Shown here piece by piece: positions 10,902 to 53,995 of a stretch of DNA of 64,000 bases. Position numbers and translations under genes: made by a program. The DNA is from an uncultured Ferrovum sp. GTDB lineage: Bacteria > Pseudomonadota > Gammaproteobacteria > Burkholderiales > Ferrovaceae. The stretch is from NCBI GenBank assembly GCA_903909215.1, contig CAIVUX010000028.1:1-64000 (forward strand), in the 5' to 3' direction. Below the pieces are notes generated by a model. It was not told where the DNA came from, did not search any database, and saw nothing but the letters and a program-made list of their open reading frames with translations. Each line of letters begins with the position of its first letter. Position 1 is the stretch's first letter.

Positions 10902-12395
10902 ATGACCCCAGAATGGGATGTTCTGATTATCGGCAGCGGTTTTTCTGGGCTGGCCATGGGGCGCCAGCTGCAACGCCAGGGGCGGCTGCGTTTCCAAATT
11001 TTGGAGCAAGCAGAGCGCCTGGGTGGCACTTGGCGCGATAACCGCTATCCCGGCTGCGGCTGCGATGTGCCCTCCCACCTCTACTCCCTCTCTTTTGCCC
11101 CTAAAATTCAATGGCAGCGACATTACGCCGATCATGGCGAGATTTGGCAGTATTTGGAAGAAGTGAGTCAACCGCTGCAGCCTCACATTCGTCTTGGGGC
11201 GTGCATGACCGAAGCGCACTACGATGCCCGTGAAAATATGTGGACAATCACCTTGCAATCAGGCGAGATGCTCACCACCCGCATTTTGGTGGCGGGATTG
11301 GGTCCGCTAACGCGCCCCTTTATTCCCTCTATTCCCGGGCTGGAACTCTTTAAGGGCTCCACTTTCCATTCCGCGCAATGGCCCGCCCAGGCGGACCTTC
11401 AATGCAAACGGGTGGCCGTGGTGGGAACCGGTGCCTCCGCTATTCAAATAGTGCCGGCGATTGCTGCACAGGTGGCGCAACTCACGGTATTTCAGCGCAC
11501 CGCCCCATGGGTGGTCTCTAAGAGCGATCATGCTTACGGCCCTTGGGCGCAATGGTGTTTCCGCTCTTTACCAGGTTGGCGTTGGCTGTATCGTGCCGGA
11601 CTTTACGCCAACCGCGAGTTGGTGGGGCTGTCTTTTATTTTTCCACGGCTCATGGGTATAGCTGAGGGTATGGCGCGCCGTTCGCTTAAACGCGAGGTTA
11701 CTGATCCGCTACTGCACGATCAACTGACACCCCATACCCCCATGGGATGCAAACGCATCATGCTCTCCGATGACTATTACACCGCGCTACAACGCCCCAA
11801 CGTCACGCTCGTCACGTCCGCCATCCACAGGGTCACTACCGACGCTGTGGTCACCGCGGACGGGGTTACCCATCCCGTGGAGGCCATTATTTGGGCTACA
11901 GGGTTTTTTCACACGCAAACACCAGAGCACCCGATCATTACCAGTAATTGGGGTCAGACCCCCGCTTCTACAACTGCTTGGGGTCTGACCCCAATTGCCC
12001 CAATTACCCTGAAAGAGATGTGGAAAACACGACGCGCTGCTTATAATGGCTCTGTGGTAGCCGGGTTCCCTAATTTATTTTTACTGACAGGTCCTAACAG
12101 CGGCCTAGGGCATAACTCCATCGTATTCATGATTGAGGCTCAGGTGCATTGGGTAATGCAAGCCCTGCGCGTGATGAAGCGTGAAGGCGCACAATCCGTG
12201 GCGTTACGCCCTGAGGTTTATGATCGCCATGTGTTGGAAATGGAGCAACGCTCTCGCACAACAGTGTGGAAATCCGGTTGCAAAAGCTGGTATCTGGATG
12301 AGCACGGTTACAACAGCGCCTTATGGCCTGGGTTATCCTTGGAGTTTTGGTGGCGTACACGGCGCTTTAGAGAACAAGATTTTATTTTAAGTTAA
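10902..12395 (+). CDS. Flavin-containing (Baeyer-Villiger-type) monooxygenase carrying an in-frame palindrome doublet
   Basis: NADPH- and FAD-dependent oxygenase of the FMO/BVMO superfamily; substrate unknown. The 497-aa protein has the FAD Rossmann motif GSGFSG (11-16), GGTWRDNRYPGCGCDVPSHLY, the BVMO fingerprint F-x-G-x-x-x-H-x-x-x-W at 150-160 (FKGSTFHSAQW), the NADPH motif GTGASA (175-180) and a late ATGF. Residues 348-364 (WGQTP...WGLTP) are encoded by an inverted pair of the GGGGTC(A/T)GACCCC palindrome. Compared with my recollection of the family, this looks like an insertion of about 16 residues between ATGF and LKEMW. It heads an operon: the amidase starts 6 bases after its stop. Confidence 0.85.
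   Translation: MTPEWDVLIIGSGFSGLAMGRQLQRQGRLRFQILEQAERLGGTWRDNRYPGCGCDVPSHLYSLSFAPKIQWQRHYADHGEIWQYLEEVSQPLQPHIRLGACMTEAHYDARENMWTITLQSGEMLTTRILVAGLGPLTRPFIPSIPGLELFKGSTFHSAQWPAQADLQCKRVAVVGTGASAIQIVPAIAAQVAQLTVFQRTAPWVVSKSDHAYGPWAQWCFRSLPGWRWLYRAGLYANRELVGLSFIFPRLMGIAEGMARRSLKREVTDPLLHDQLTPHTPMGCKRIMLSDDYYTALQRPNVTLVTSAIHRVTTDAVVTADGVTHPVEAIIWATGFFHTQTPEHPIITSNWGQTPASTTAWGLTPIAPITLKEMWKTRRAAYNGSVVAGFPNLFLLTGPNSGLGHNSIVFMIEAQVHWVMQALRVMKREGAQSVALRPEVYDRHVLEMEQRSRTTVWKSGCKSWYLDEHGYNSALWPGLSLEFWWRTRRFREQDFILS
11946..11996. repeat. Inverted palindrome doublet (REPIN-like) inside a coding region
   Basis: A 17-bp arm AATTGGGGTCAGACCCC (11946-11962) is repeated as its exact reverse complement at 11980-11996, with 17 bases between. 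Each arm contains the 13-bp palindrome found elsewhere in the window. The 51-bp unit keeps the monooxygenase frame open. Two inverted palindromic units around a short spacer is the layout of REP doublets/REPINs; the assignment to that class is inference. Confidence 0.85.
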
Positions 12396-21245: not shown

Positions 21246-22265
21246 TTAACTCAAAGAATTAATAAAAGGGCGCAAGCACTCTTGTGCCAACTCATATTGC
21301 GCCTGACCCACAGCCCTGCTGGGTGCTGGTAAGCTCATCATGCGTGTTAAGCGCTGCGCGCTGGCGGCGTTCCAGTGAAAGCCATCCAACCCTTCCACCA
21401 ATTCTTGCGCTGCAACAGGGTCGTTACACAACAACACCATATCGCAACCCGCCGTCATGGCCGCTTGTGCACGCTGCGCAGGGCCACCCTCACCCAAAGC
21501 CCCTTTCATAGACAGGTCATCGCTAAAAATAACTCCATCAAACCCTAACTGAACGCGCAACACCTGCTGCAACCAGAAGGGTGAAAAACCAGCAGGCTTA
21601 TCATCCACGGCAGCATAACGAATATGCGCCGGCATAATCGCCTCTAGACCTGAACCCATAAGACGGCGGAAGGGCTCAATATCTTCATGGTCGATTTCTG
21701 TAAAGCTGCGCTGGTCCACCGGCAGGTCATGATGGGAATCTGCTTCCACAAAGCCATGCCCCGGAAAATGTTTTCCTACAGCTGGAAAACCGGCTTGATG
21801 CAACCCCAAGCAATGGGCTGCTGCCAATTGCGCCACCACATCAGCGTTGCGATGAAAAGCGCGGTTGCCAATCACTGTGCTGCGTCCGAAATCCAAATCC
21901 AATACCGGAGTAAATGACAGATCGACGCCGTGCAGGTGCAGTTCCCAAGCCAACACAAACCCAGCAGCCTTGGCCCATGTCAGAGCCTCTTGGGGGCTTG
22001 TATTAAAGCGCTCGCCCAAGGCAGCCATGGGAGGCAGCACTGTAAAGCCTGATTTAAAACGCTGCACCCGACCGCCTTCGTGGTCCACCGCAATAATGAG
22101 ATCGTCCTTAACCGCATGTAATTCTGCAGTTAAAGCTTTGAGCTGTTCTGTGGATGCAAAATTTCGGCTGAATAAAATCACGCCGCCCACACGCGGGTGT
22201 GCAACCCACTGCACCTCGTCAGGGGCGAGGGTCAGACCCCGAATGTCCAACATCACCGGACCCAT
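21246..22265 (-). CDS. nagZ: Beta-N-acetylhexosaminidase
   Basis: Cytosolic GH3 enzyme that removes GlcNAc from muropeptides during peptidoglycan recycling. The 339-aa protein has [11 protein letters not shown] at the start, the catalytic-loop motif KHFPGHGFVEADSHHDLP, and the nucleophile Asp in FDGVIFSDDLSMKGAL. A palindrome copy (12 of the 13 bases) lies at 22229-22240 and encodes part of RGLTLA, without changing the expected length. Its ATG overlaps the acpS stop, making it the distal gene of the lepA-to-nagZ run. Confidence 0.93.
   Translation of the reverse strand: MGPVMLDIRGLTLAPDEVQWVAHPRVGGVILFSRNFASTEQLKALTAELHAVKDDLIIAVDHEGGRVQRFKSGFTVLPPMAALGERFNTSPQEALTWAKAAGFVLAWELHLHGVDLSFTPVLDLDFGRSTVIGNRAFHRNADVVAQLAAAHCLGLHQAGFPAVGKHFPGHGFVEADSHHDLPVDQRSFTEIDHEDIEPFRRLMGSGLEAIMPAHIRYAAVDDKPAGFSPFWLQQVLRVQLGFDGVIFSDDLSMKGALGEGGPAQRAQAAMTAGCDMVLLCNDPVAAQELVEGLDGFHWNAASAQRLTRMMSLPAPSRAVGQAQYELAQECLRPFINSLS
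22229..22240. repeat. Palindrome copy in nagZ coding sequence
   Basis: GGGTCAGACCCC, one outer G short of the 13-bp consensus. It is read as Arg-Gly-Leu-Thr-Leu on the nagZ strand. Flanks (GCGA and GAAT) do not match the AATT arms of the monooxygenase doublet. Confidence 0.6.
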
Positions 22266-23376: not shown

Positions 23377-24134
23377 AGTAGAGGGAGCTCCTGAATAATG
23401 CGTCGCGAATGTAAATCTTGTCCACCCAAGTAATGCCCCAACAAAACCCTCATTAATTGCTTACTCTGGTTTAAAGTACTGATATTTTCATAATGACCGC
23501 GCGCCATATCAAGCAAGGTTTTGCCAATAAATTGTACTGTATTACTCGATTGGGCAACCTGTTGGGTAAGACGTACGGGACCTAATTCCACCGCATAGGT
23601 GTAATGCGCCTCGGGATCGATAGGACACCGCCCATCCGCCTCATGTGTTAATTGTAAGGCATAACCCAATTCACGCAGCAAATTCACTTCAAAAGCACGC
23701 AATACAGGCTCGAAGGGTGCATGGGTGGCCAGTTGCACCAAGGCCTGCTGATACAGTTCAAACAGGTTTTGATGGGGATCGTCGCGTACTAAAAGACGCA
23801 ACAACAGCTCATTGAGATAAAAACCACAGAATAGTGCAGACCCTTTTAACAACGGAACCCCGCCCTGCCATTCTGCTTGTTTTAGAGTGCGCAATTCACC
23901 AGCACCAAACCAGGTGACGCGAAGAGGTTGAAAGGGTTGCAGTAATCCTCGCAGGGCTGAACGCGGGCGCCTGGCTCCTTTGGCCACCAATGGAATACGT
24001 CCATGCTCCGCACTGAACAGCTCCACAATCTGGCTGGTTTCACGCCAGGGAATACTGTGCAGCACAAAAGCCGTGCTGGCGGAATGGCGACGCTCAGAGA
24101 CCATGACCCAACTGTTTAAGAGCGCGTTCATCAT
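23373..24134 (-). CDS. recO: DNA repair protein RecO
   Basis: RecFOR-pathway mediator that loads RecA on SSB-coated DNA. The 253-aa frame has the OB-fold N terminus ([36 protein letters not shown]) and a helical C-terminal domain ([18 protein letters not shown]). The family zinc cysteines are poorly represented, as in other beta/gamma RecO proteins. The first ATG would overlap era by 41 bases; an internal ATG at 24102-24104 (MVSERRH) gives an 11-base overlap and a more typical length, but neither start has a clear ribosome site. Confidence 0.88.
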
Positions 24135-25011
24135 CAGACCAACCGCCCTTCACCTTAACCCATAACTCCAGAAACACTTTACCCTCAATCAAGCGCTCAA
24201 TATCTTGACGAGCGCGGGTCCCGATTTGTTTCAGTTTTTCACCATTGTGACCAATCACGATTGCCTTTTGATTGTCATTTTCCACCAAAATAGTGGCATA
24301 AATACGGCGCAGATTGCCTTCCTCTTGGTACTGATCAATCATTACCGTGGTGGCATAGGGCAATTCCTCGCCCAACAGGCGAAACAACTGTTCGCGAATA
24401 AACTCGGCCGCTAAGAAGCGTTCACTGCTGTCGGTGACTTCGTCAACACCATATAAAGGGGGTGCTACAGGTAGGCGCGAACGAATTTCAGAGAGCAGTC
24501 CACCAAAATTATCGTCATGGCCAGCGCTTAAAGGGATAACAGCTGCAAAACGAGGCTCTTCGCCACATTTTTTAAGGAACGGCAGTAATAAGGAGCGTGG
24601 TTTCACCTTATCTATTTTATTAATGACCAATAGGGGTCTGACCCCAACGGGGATGCGGTTCAACACCCATTGATCATCAGTGTTCCAACGCAAGGCCTCA
24701 ATCACCAATAACACCACATCCACATCGTTTAAAGTGGTGATGATAGAACGGTTCATGGCACGATTCAGGGCATTGCTGAAACGATTTTGGTAACCTGGGG
24801 TGTCCACAAAGACAAACTGTACATCAGGTTGTGTAACGAAACCCTTAATCCGGCTGCGCGTGGTTTGGGGCTTATGTGAAGTGATGCTGAGTTTTTGCCC
24901 TACCAAATGATTCAGTAACGTGGATTTACCCACGTTAGGGCGCCCTACAATAGCAATGGTACCGCAGCGAAAATCTGGGTTCATGGGGCCCGTGTCAATG
25001 GGTTCGCTCAT
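24094..25011 (-). CDS. era: GTPase Era
   Basis: Ribosome-assembly GTPase that binds the 3' end of 16S rRNA. The 305-aa protein has G1 GRPNVGKS (23-30), switch region KPQTTRSRIKG, G3 DTPG, G4 NKID, and a C-terminal KH domain with the GHNGEKLKQIGTRARQDIERL loop. A complete palindrome copy (24633-24645) encodes part of PVGVRPLL just before the G4 strand, in the variable loop before the NKxD motif. ATG overlaps the rnc stop, as in many proteobacteria. Confidence 0.96.
   Translation of the reverse strand: MSEPIDTGPMNPDFRCGTIAIVGRPNVGKSTLLNHLVGQKLSITSHKPQTTRSRIKGFVTQPDVQFVFVDTPGYQNRFSNALNRAMNRSIITTLNDVDVVLLVIEALRWNTDDQWVLNRIPVGVRPLLVINKIDKVKPRSLLLPFLKKCGEEPRFAAVIPLSAGHDDNFGGLLSEIRSRLPVAPPLYGVDEVTDSSERFLAAEFIREQLFRLLGEELPYATTVMIDQYQEEGNLRRIYATILVENDNQKAIVIGHNGEKLKQIGTRARQDIERLIEGKVFLELWVKVKGGWSDDERALKQLGHGL
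24633..24645. repeat. Palindrome copy in era coding sequence
   Basis: A perfect GGGGTCTGACCCC on the plus strand; on the era strand it reads in the frame GGG-GTC-AGA-CCC (Gly-Val-Arg-Pro). Flanks on the era strand are GTT and TATT. Confidence 0.75.
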
Positions 25012-28606: not shown

Positions 28607-28619
28607 GGGGTCTGACCCC
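28607..28619. repeat. Palindrome copy downstream of degP
   Basis: A perfect GGGGTCTGACCCC 4 bases past the degP stop codon (minus-strand direction), with an extra half copy GGGGTC at 28597-28602. It lies between degP and the lepA leader. Confidence 0.75.
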
Positions 28620-38479: not shown

Positions 38480-40264
38480 CTAACATGGGGCCACCTCAAT
38501 ATCTTGTAAGGGGTCTGACCCCTGGGTAATCACGCGCTGTAAATGGTTGCAGATACTCAACTCATGCAAAGCAAAGAAACGGGCATGAGCCAACTTAGTA
38601 CGGTAAAAATTACTGTCCGGCCCACTGGATCGCAAGGCAGCCTCTGCAAGAGTGGCGCTGCGCGCCCATAACCAACCGCTCACCAACCACCCCATAAGGG
38701 TGAGATACGGCACCGCAGCGCCAAATGCGGTAGCGCTTTGTGTGGGTCCTATTTTCAACAGATAGGCTGTAGCTGATTCCGCAGCAGAAAGCGCTTCAGA
38801 CAATGCATTATAAACCGGCTGTACAGCAGCACTTTGCGTGGCAGTGGCACAGACCGTAGTGCGAATATCGCTCAATAACGCATTCATCATGACACCGTTG
38901 TCACGTAACAATTTGCGGCCCAATAAATCATTGGCCTGAATGCCCGTAGTGCCTTCGTAAATAGTGCTAATGCGAGCATCGCGCAAATATTGCGCGGCCC
39001 CCATCTCCTCCACATAACCCATTCCACCAAACACCTGCAGCGCTTCATTGGCCGCCCACACACCGGTTTCGGTACAAAACCCTTTCACAATGGGGGTTAA
39101 TACATCGGCGCGGGCTTGAGCGCTTGTTCGACGCGCAACATCGGTTTCAGCGCGTGCCTGATCAAGCAGCATCCCTGTATAGTAGGCCATGGCGCGACAA
39201 CCCTCCAAGCGGGTTTGGACAGTTACCAATATGCGTTTTACATCGGGATGGTGGGCGATAGGCGCTGGTTCCTTATGCCCAATGGGAATGCCTTGAATGC
39301 GTTGCAGCGCATAATTCACGGCCGCTTGATAGGCGCGCTCGCCAATAGCCAAACCTTGCACACCCACAGAAAAGCGCGCGGCATTCATCATCACAAACAT
39401 GGTTTCCAAGCCGCAGTGAGGCTTTCCCACTAAGTAGCCAATCGCCCCTTGTTTGTCCCCAAAAGCCAATACGCAGGTGGGGCTGGCGTGAATGCCCAGT
39501 TTATGTTCTAACGACACCGTTTGAATGTCATTGCGCTCACCCAAAGAGCCATCCTGATGAACCAAAAACTTGGGCACTAAAAACAATGAAATACCTTTTA
39601 CACCCGCAGGGGCGTCCGGTAGGCGCGCCAACACCAAATGAATAATATTCTCGGTGAGGTCGTGATCGCCGTAGGTGATAAAAACTTTTTGGCCACGAAT
39701 GCGGTAATAATCATTTTCTGGACTGGCTTGCGAACGCAGTGCCGCAAGATCAGAACCCGCTTGGGGTTCGGTTAAATTCATGGTGCCTGCCCAGCGACCT
39801 TCCACCATGGCCGGCAGATAGCGTTCACGCATAGCAGTAGAGCCTGCGTAGTGAATAGCCTCAATGGCGCCGCGCGTAAGGAGCGGACAGAGAGTGAAAG
39901 ACATGTTGGCGGAATGCCACATTTCCTCAACGGAGGCGGCCAGTAAATGCGGCAAACCTTGTCCGCCATAATCGGGGGAGGATGTTAGACCACCCCACCC
40001 ACTGTCGATAAATTGCGCATAGGCTTCCTTGAATCCTGCTGCGGTGTGCACTTCCCCGCCCACCAATCGGGCACCTTCTAAATCTCCCGAGCGATTGAGG
40101 GGGGCCAATTCTTGTTGGGAAAAACGCGCAGACTCATCCAAAATGGCATCAAATAAATCATCTGTGGCATCCTCAAACCCGGGTAAAGTATTTACCGACG
40201 ACAGCTGCAAGAGTTCTTTCACCACAAATTTCATGTCGCGCGTGGGCGCTGCATAAAGAGTCAT
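38480..40264 (-). CDS. Acyl-CoA dehydrogenase, DmdC-like (about 600 aa type)
   Basis: FAD enzyme that desaturates an acyl-CoA and hands electrons to ETF. The 594-aa size, the N terminus (MKFVVKELLQL), the middle domain LTEPQAGSDLAALRS and KVFITYGDHD, and the catalytic Glu in IYEGTTGIQANDLLG place it with DmdC/long acyl-CoA dehydrogenases that carry an extra C-terminal domain. Substrate could be a fatty acyl-CoA or 3-methylmercaptopropionyl-CoA. A palindrome copy at 38510-38522 encodes Gly-Ser-Asp-Pro in the last residues (VITQGSDPLQDIEVAPC), so the tail is atypical. Confidence 0.88.
   Translation of the reverse strand: MTLYAAPTRDMKFVVKELLQLSSVNTLPGFEDATDDLFDAILDESARFSQQELAPLNRSGDLEGARLVGGEVHTAAGFKEAYAQFIDSGWGGLTSSPDYGGQGLPHLLAASVEEMWHSANMSFTLCPLLTRGAIEAIHYAGSTAMRERYLPAMVEGRWAGTMNLTEPQAGSDLAALRSQASPENDYYRIRGQKVFITYGDHDLTENIIHLVLARLPDAPAGVKGISLFLVPKFLVHQDGSLGERNDIQTVSLEHKLGIHASPTCVLAFGDKQGAIGYLVGKPHCGLETMFVMMNAARFSVGVQGLAIGERAYQAAVNYALQRIQGIPIGHKEPAPIAHHPDVKRILVTVQTRLEGCRAMAYYTGMLLDQARAETDVARRTSAQARADVLTPIVKGFCTETGVWAANEALQVFGGMGYVEEMGAAQYLRDARISTIYEGTTGIQANDLLGRKLLRDNGVMMNALLSDIRTTVCATATQSAAVQPVYNALSEALSAAESATAYLLKIGPTQSATAFGAAVPYLTLMGWLVSGWLWARSATLAEAALRSSGPDSNFYRTKLAHARFFALHELSICNHLQRVITQGSDPLQDIEVAPC
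38510..38522. repeat. Palindrome copy in the acyl-CoA dehydrogenase C terminus
   Basis: A perfect GGGGTCTGACCCC about 10 codons before the stop. On the gene strand it reads in the third possible frame (Gln-Gly-Ser-Asp-Pro). Confidence 0.75.
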
Positions 40265-53916: not shown

Positions 53917-53949
53917 ACTTCATTCTCCATAACAATGTTTTGGGTATTA

Positions 53950-53995
53950 GGGTCAGACCCCACTAGGGGTCAGACCCCTAAAGGGGTCTGACCCC
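53950..53995. repeat. Cluster of three palindrome copies between sdhE and gltA
   Basis: Copies at 53950-53961 (one outer G missing), 53966-53978 and 53983-53995 of GGGGTC(A/T)GACCCC fill most of the 84-base gap. The second and third face each other around TAAA, so they can form either small hairpins or one long one. No ribosome site or T-run is part of the array. Confidence 0.85.

Follow-up and report, generated by a model that had tools for sequence, protein, structure and literature searches.

An inverted pair of palindromic cores in a flavin monooxygenase-like gene

The window (the whole 64,000-nt stretch of DNA that was analyzed) carries, at 10902–12395 (+), an open reading frame for a 497-aa protein. 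Profile searches matched this protein to flavin monooxygenase and pyridine nucleotide oxidoreductase models (PF13738, 5.1e-15; PF00743, 2.1e-14), bearing out the flavin monooxygenase-like identity given to it in an earlier, sequence-only reading of this DNA. Inside the gene, at 11946–11996, lies an inverted pair of a palindromic core (features built on the palindrome are given here without a strand). As had been claimed, its two 17-nt arms (11946–11962 and 11980–11996) are 100% complementary across a 17-nt spacer (11963–11979), and they constitute the only inverted repeat detected within 11800–12150. A pattern search placed core 1 (GGGGTCAGACCCC, one of 329 genome-wide) at 11950–11962 and core 2 (GGGGTCTGACCCC) at 11980–11992. 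The 17 codons of the element read NWGQTPASTTAWGLTPI in the open frame, again as noted earlier, and the folding of its DNA was calculated at -21.4 kcal/mol, compared with -7.4 ± 1.9 kcal/mol for shuffles (z -7.5).

The sequence-only reading had also held that the pair was inserted in frame and lengthens the protein by about 16 residues: does this protein indeed exceed its relatives here? BLAST with the monooxygenase protein retrieved 19 loci from relatives. Eighteen of the homologues span the site (34–62% identical); the nineteenth, a partial match to residues 1–275, was excluded from the alignment. None of the 18 shares the loop length of the window protein, all being 16 residues shorter; the missing 48 nt were placed at 11955–12002 (+), a gap placement that is arbitrary by a few codons. 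Read off the sequence, this segment terminates in a short direct repeat (CCCCAATTG/CCCCAATTA). There was no genome of the same genus among the relatives searched, and hence a same-species empty site is absent from the comparison; the recent date that the sequence-only reading gave the insertion went unsupported. A structure model built from 14 sequences (the window protein and 13 homologues) has a mean pLDDT of 84.1 and values below 50 at residues 353–364, in keeping with the extra flexible loop that had been proposed; a second stretch, residues 399–401, is also below 50. The monooxygenase copy looks like an ordinary in-frame insertion of 16 residues, mostly of low model confidence, that is presumably tolerated.

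Abundance of the core in this and other genomes

The family core, the 13-mer GGGGTCWGACCCC, occurs 329 times in the organism's own assembly (1,534,657 bases, 51 contigs), where a reversed control pattern has 0 copies. Within the window, a search for the 15-mer TTGGGGTCWGACCCC at ≤2 mismatches returned 17 matches (both strands counted) against 0.26 expected. On the strength of these two comparisons, a chance origin of the repeat was dismissed.

The 13-mer was present in 12 of 60 other genomes examined. The 31 other genomes of the same family have 0–8 cores each; one sister genus has 4–8 in four of five genomes, and counts in other families of the order reach 14, 19 and 75. The genome with 75 copies (G036) carries the 13-mer at several places in head-to-tail runs with no spacer (L327–L332), unlike the spaced pairs here. 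Our genome has 75 pairs with a 4–5 nt loop, and not one was found across 219 further genomes sampled from the order. When pairs with a 3–6 nt loop were sought in named genomes, at least 80 loci were obtained. Among the matches listed, 54 belong to Alcaligenaceae bacterium CAII-53, and the remainder to Rugamonas, Duganella, Massilia, Hyphomicrobium, Marinobacter, Cellvibrionaceae and MAGs labelled Gammaproteobacteria, Betaproteobacteria, Lachnospiraceae (two), Actinobacteria and Verrucomicrobia. The pairs on single contigs of the Lachnospiraceae, Actinobacteria and Verrucomicrobia MAGs could be binning errors. As far as the partial texts of the published literature searched extend, the 13-mer was not found, and shorter forms occurred only in apparently unrelated work.

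Association of the core with RAYT genes

REPINs and RAYT-associated REPs are described, in the available portions of PMC3116915 and PMC8266576, as inverted pairs of a palindromic core that form a hairpin. Does the present core keep company with genes for REP-associated tyrosine transposases (RAYTs)? The Y1_Tnp model (PF01797) matched in 12 of the 14 genomes behind the listed pair loci. The 28 Y1_Tnp loci taken yielded 24 RAYT-type ORFs (one protein is contained twice, as rows L030 and L336), and an 11-mer core lies within 600 bp of nine of the 24, a proportion that is no test against background because the RAYT loci come mostly from genomes picked for holding the pair. The other 15, including those of the Lachnospiraceae, Actinobacteria and Verrucomicrobia MAGs, lack a nearby 11-mer core; a core beside a RAYT gene was found only in genomes labelled Proteobacteria or in this order. 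The NCBIfam model NF047646 (REP_Tyr_transpos) was tried on five core-associated RAYTs and hit each with an E-value no higher than 1.6e-17, all scores (63.8–79.2 bits) being under its 80-bit cut-off. A single origin of the motif-bearing RAYTs was considered and went unsupported, as they require six changes on the tree and do not form one clade; seven of the nine fall within one supported clade of 12.

CAII-53 is a good model REPIN system, having 1,752 cores in 4.4 Mb and a RAYT gene bracketed by inverted pairs. This gene (L250:1236–1990), the better of two relatives in that genome, has pairs on both sides with the loops GCAT and GTAC, both of which also occur here. Of 293 CAII-53 genes sampled, 12 are flanked on both sides by a core at ≤120 bp, putting chance flanking in that genome at about 4%. 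Because CAII-53 is so full of pairs, the RAYT link draws its weight from several genomes together (Marinobacter L248, Hyphomicrobium L256, Duganella L251 and L259) and not from a single one.

Our organism's own assembly (51 contigs; seven short contigs read N) gave no PF01797 match, and a search with the CAII-53 protein found nothing in it even at E 10. A RAYT locus, if flanked by repeats, may have been lost from this short-read assembly on a contig too short to bin; several contig ends lie at repeats. The same core flanks RAYT genes elsewhere, and for this reason we regard the inverted pairs as REPIN-like, which upholds the earlier suggestion.

Anatomy of the copies

We dissected the copies in a sample of 509,093 unmasked bases, about a third of the genome. 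It holds 102 exact cores in 63 clusters: 34 single, 21 double, 6 triple and 2 quadruple. The 63 may be 62, as the cores at L038:9 and L110:64 look like one locus; these two contig ends share a flank beside the core, and the assembly apparently broke at repeats. Neighboring cores at 17- or 18-nt spacing run CAG then CTG in 26 of 33 cases and have the same center in seven, with no instance of CTG then CAG. The loops of the pairs are mostly of 4 nt (GCAT, CCAT, GGGT, ATGC and others). The outer flanks of multi-core clusters are inverted-symmetric over a mean of 2.86 nt versus 0.80 nt when shuffled (largest shuffle 1.72); for single cores the values are 0.80 and 0.49 nt, which is inside the shuffle range. 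A GT[AG]G foot is present at 2 of 124 outer feet here and at 6 of 189 in CAII-53.

Besides the 102 exact cores, the sample has 29 copies with one mismatch, 23 of them mismatched at the outermost base, and 17 with two. Twenty-nine permuted-palindrome controls gave means of 0, 0.7 and 13.7 for zero, one and two mismatches (largest 0, 4 and 30). Internal near-matches to the core are almost absent here. The spectrum is broader at the 54 CAII-53 loci, which were selected by the presence of a pair: 269, 127 and 36 copies versus control means of 0, 1.1 and 16.7.

In the window, lone cores at 24633–24645, in the gene for the GTPase Era (24094–25011, -), and at 38510–38522, near the 3' end of an acyl-CoA dehydrogenase gene (38480–40264, -), leave the length unchanged with respect to homologues. 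Another lone core is intergenic (28607–28619; pattern search and gene calls). Three intergenic cores, the first with a changed outermost base, occupy 53949–53995 (pattern search and folding), and a core with a changed outermost base was found by pattern search at 22228–22240, near the start of the ORF at 21246–22265 (-).

Location within genes

A home-made gene caller assigned 483,200 of the 509,093 sampled bases to coding sequence. By these calls, genes contain 31 of the 63 clusters (20 single, 11 multiple); a further 10 are at gene edges and 22 are intergenic. Five of the 31 fall among the first 30 codons as called, and the true start of those genes may lie further downstream. The density of lone cores outside genes and at edges (14 clusters in ~26 kb) is some 13 times that inside (20 clusters in ~483 kb). 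At the CAII-53 loci, 5 of 95 clusters are in genes, all of them multiple and four within 30 codons of the called start; lone cores in genes account for 0 of the 95. The core-bearing genes in our sample include those for Era, RatA, aldehyde dehydrogenase, Fmt, MnmE, an EnvC-like protein, the type II secretion M protein and EarP (NCBIfam/Pfam names, some scoring under curated cut-offs), and further for GlyS, RfbA, PmbA, NadC, BioF and tartrate dehydrogenase-like, FadB-like and Xaa-Pro aminopeptidase-like proteins. At L042:5792–5838, two called genes converge and overlap at their 3' ends, which are made up of three cores. The 40 spacings between sites have a CV of 0.72, a value biased by the 20-kb pieces.

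Pairs and lone cores compared with homologues

Do pairs and lone cores arise in the same way? Sister-genus homologues were aligned at the in-gene sites, and relatives at 45–85% protein identity underlie the ancestral states. Three single-core clusters (L046:17, L110:9867 and L116:3793) and two multi-core clusters (L113:8126 and L114:106) were left out of the homologue search; three more multi-core clusters, at gene ends, aligned poorly. At the remaining six multi-core in-gene sites, which had informative homologues, length was changed in every case: monooxygenase +16, RatA +18, Fmt +11, tartrate dehydrogenase-like +6, BioF +4 and EarP about -11 residues. The net nucleotide gain at pairs varies accordingly (+54, +48, +33, +18 and +12 nt, plus one deletion; +48 nt in the monooxygenase), and the fixed 51-bp element that the sequence-only reading had envisaged did not hold up. 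The EarP gene (L042:19085–19999, -) has a triple element where homologues have some 11 more residues, and its called frame is shorter than the family profile.

Among the 20 single exact cores in genes, five have a degenerate second core within 30 nt. Three of these allowed a judgment, and in all three the length was changed: MnmE (relative to most but not every homologue), an Xaa-Pro aminopeptidase-like protein (+8) and a protein that we take to be ComF-like (about -19). Fifteen lone in-gene cores remain, 13 of which have homologues, and 12 of the 13 show no indel (the MFS site has one homologue, and the FadB-like site has a gap in 1 of 10 rows). The exception, L104 at 3624, is a lone core in an 8-residue insertion. 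Native residues nearly spell the motif at several sites, with the homologues' TASDPF corresponding to TGSDPF in PmbA, GQDP or GNDP to GSDP in RfbA, GEDP to GSDP in the EnvC-like protein, KDPKG to GSDPKG in GlyS and xVRPLL to GVRPLL in Era; in the aldehyde dehydrogenase, GGSDPF is the same in homologues.

At 13 sites, two of which (mnmE and the Xaa-Pro aminopeptidase-like gene) have a second near-core close by, the homologous DNA has a mean of 5.85 mismatches to the motif in 54 comparisons, versus 9.16 for 5,474 control windows. The comparisons are non-independent, since overlapping loci brought in certain homologous genes a second time. In one homologue of the aldehyde dehydrogenase gene, only one base departs from the motif, and the GACCCC half is often already intact in the relatives of GlyS, RfbA, PmbA and aldehyde dehydrogenase. 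Means at three sites (acyl-CoA dehydrogenase, MFS and NadC) are 7.0–8.2 mismatches, only slightly below the controls. Because 12 of 13 lone sites lack an insertion and homologues have near-matching codons at several of them, we infer that lone cores arose by substitution. Random 13-nt overwriting followed by selection was rejected, by argument only: the higher density of lone cores outside genes would imply only about 260 in-gene trials, which we judged too few to give near-native peptides such as TGSDPFAG.

A lone exact core also lies within lspA (L321:174–803, -) of a sister-genus genome with eight cores (G023); the process may therefore be older than the lineage studied here.

Peptides encoded by the core

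The peptides that the core encodes are overrepresented in the sample, pairs included. GSDP occurs 25 times, 20 of them as the exact motif (permuted peptides: mean 2.1, largest 6); GQTP 19 times, 14 exact (mean 1.4, largest 5); GLTP 21 times, 13 exact (mean 4.0, largest 10); and GVRP nine times, seven exact (mean 2.5, largest 7). Across 78,828 codons of sister genera, the respective counts are 0, 1, 2 and 1, with no exact motif. Given the codon usage, xGSDP would be written as the exact motif with a probability of 0.002.

Origin of the pairs and lone cores

We think it likely that the pair in the monooxygenase gene is a REPIN-like member of the GGGGTCWGACCCC family and that the lone cores come from substitution under drive or selection, atop a REPIN invasion. 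A RAYT that has since disappeared, or that the assembly lacks, would have seeded the pairs here; RAYTs, which are HUH transposases, are believed to mobilize hairpins of this kind in single-stranded form. The pairs seem to have expanded or integrated by events of differing net length, accompanied by local duplications and changes to the target. A second process, in which the 13-mer itself is driven or selected for and arises by base substitution, would have produced the lone cores. The scarcity of internal near-matches implies that the burst is very recent or that the exact word exerts a strong pull, and we favor the pull, since homologues near-match at conserved sites. The driver of substitution is putative, with uptake-biased recombination as one candidate. 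A bolder version, which we offer tentatively and with more doubt than conviction, is that after loss of the transposase the host turns near-matches in ordinary genes into GGGGTCWGACCCC by point substitution, through uptake-biased recombination or a site-requiring protein, such that a REP core would have become a driven genomic word.

Could uptake do more of the work? A receptor would recognize the motif, and uptake with recombination would drive near-matches to exactness, REPINs having given the first copies. The exact word in conserved genes, without insertion and in tolerated frames, suits this proposal, as do the inverted pairs and the CTG on one strand of each core, which Neisseriaceae DUS need according to the accessible part of PMC3630211. 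A ComEC homologue is present in the organism's genome, which says little because E. coli has a match too. Against it, no 12-mer with at least six copies stood out in 60–120 kb of each of four relatives (G006, G007, G001 and G003), a result by which family-wide uptake dialects were also rejected, and uptake alone leaves the variable insertions unexplained. We regard this account as rather unlikely.

It is improbable that the 13-mer is a HIP1-like iterated palindrome maintained by a putative DNA methyltransferase, repair or chromosome-binding protein, as we know of no HIP1 in the form of paired hairpins with insertions. The word is nonetheless palindromic, exact and found in genes without insertion, and cyanobacterial HIP1 has been tied to orphan methyltransferases (PMC4390886, available in part).

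Self-templated growth, in which half-sites such as GACCCC fold back, are copied, complete the palindrome and later add a second inverted core, strikes us as similarly improbable. The inverted symmetry of multi-core outer flanks, the short flank duplications readable at many sites and the GACCCC halves already intact in relatives are what it predicts, but it leaves unexplained why the enrichment is confined to this 13-mer and extends to none of the 29 permuted palindromes. Plain REPIN spread, with a RAYT inserting every copy and lone cores being broken pairs, fits the pairs and the RAYTs that flank the same core elsewhere, yet it is the least probable of these accounts, because a 13-nt insertion would shift the frame whereas 12 of 13 lone in-gene sites lack an indel, because lone cores in genes are absent from the CAII-53 loci (chosen by the pair), and because many lone cores here are exact.

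Comparison with known systems

REPINs are described as extragenic, the inserts of Rickettsia palindromic elements (RPE) are near-constant in length, and HIP1 is an 8-bp word that occurs in coding DNA more densely than the 13-mer does here. The present family shares with REPINs an inverted core pair that folds to a hairpin, hundreds of copies and a core beside RAYT genes in other genomes. It differs in that no RAYT was found in the assembly (51 contigs), the GT[AG]G foot is lacking and half of the sites are in called genes. In the available text of PMC3116915, REPIN singlets are held to be doublet remnants and more degenerate than doublets; many lone cores here are exact and apparently substitution-born. 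REPs are described in PMC6006769 as species-specific, their sequences not being conserved between species, whereas our core is identical in distant genomes.

In-frame REPs in genes, including RPE, are already known from the excerpted PMC3733652, and the likeness is that palindromic repeats add in-frame peptides to many unrelated proteins. In-frame insertions were found here in the monooxygenase, RatA, Fmt, tartrate dehydrogenase-like and BioF genes, with the difference from RPE that the core is of 13 nt, the net length varies and lone cores occur without insertion. The 13-mer resembles HIP1 in being a highly iterated palindrome, and departs from it in length (13 versus 8 bp), in its paired hairpins and in its lower density. 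Like DUS, it is a short, exact, overrepresented motif with a CTG core, in and between genes and in tolerated frames; DUS require that CTG core and form overlapping dyads in Simonsiella, as given in the portion of PMC3630211 seen. Unlike DUS, it is a 13-bp palindrome that is sparse in relatives and a REP core elsewhere, and its uptake role is putative.

In this small-genome bacterium, a 13-letter repeat is present hundreds of times, with about half of the sampled sites in genes. Several core genes, RatA, Fmt and BioF among them, have gained peptides from a REP core, well past the extragenic habit described for REPs. Many of the lone copies look as if they arose by letter change rather than by insertion, which would depart from the usual view of how such repeats spread. 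The family bears on where uptake sequences and iterated palindromes may come from. Because the 13-mer exists here both as REPIN-like pairs and as exact lone words in conserved genes, this genome is a place to test the passage from mobile repeat to host signal; if our reading is true, a selfish repeat would have become something like a DNA-uptake or HIP1-type signal.
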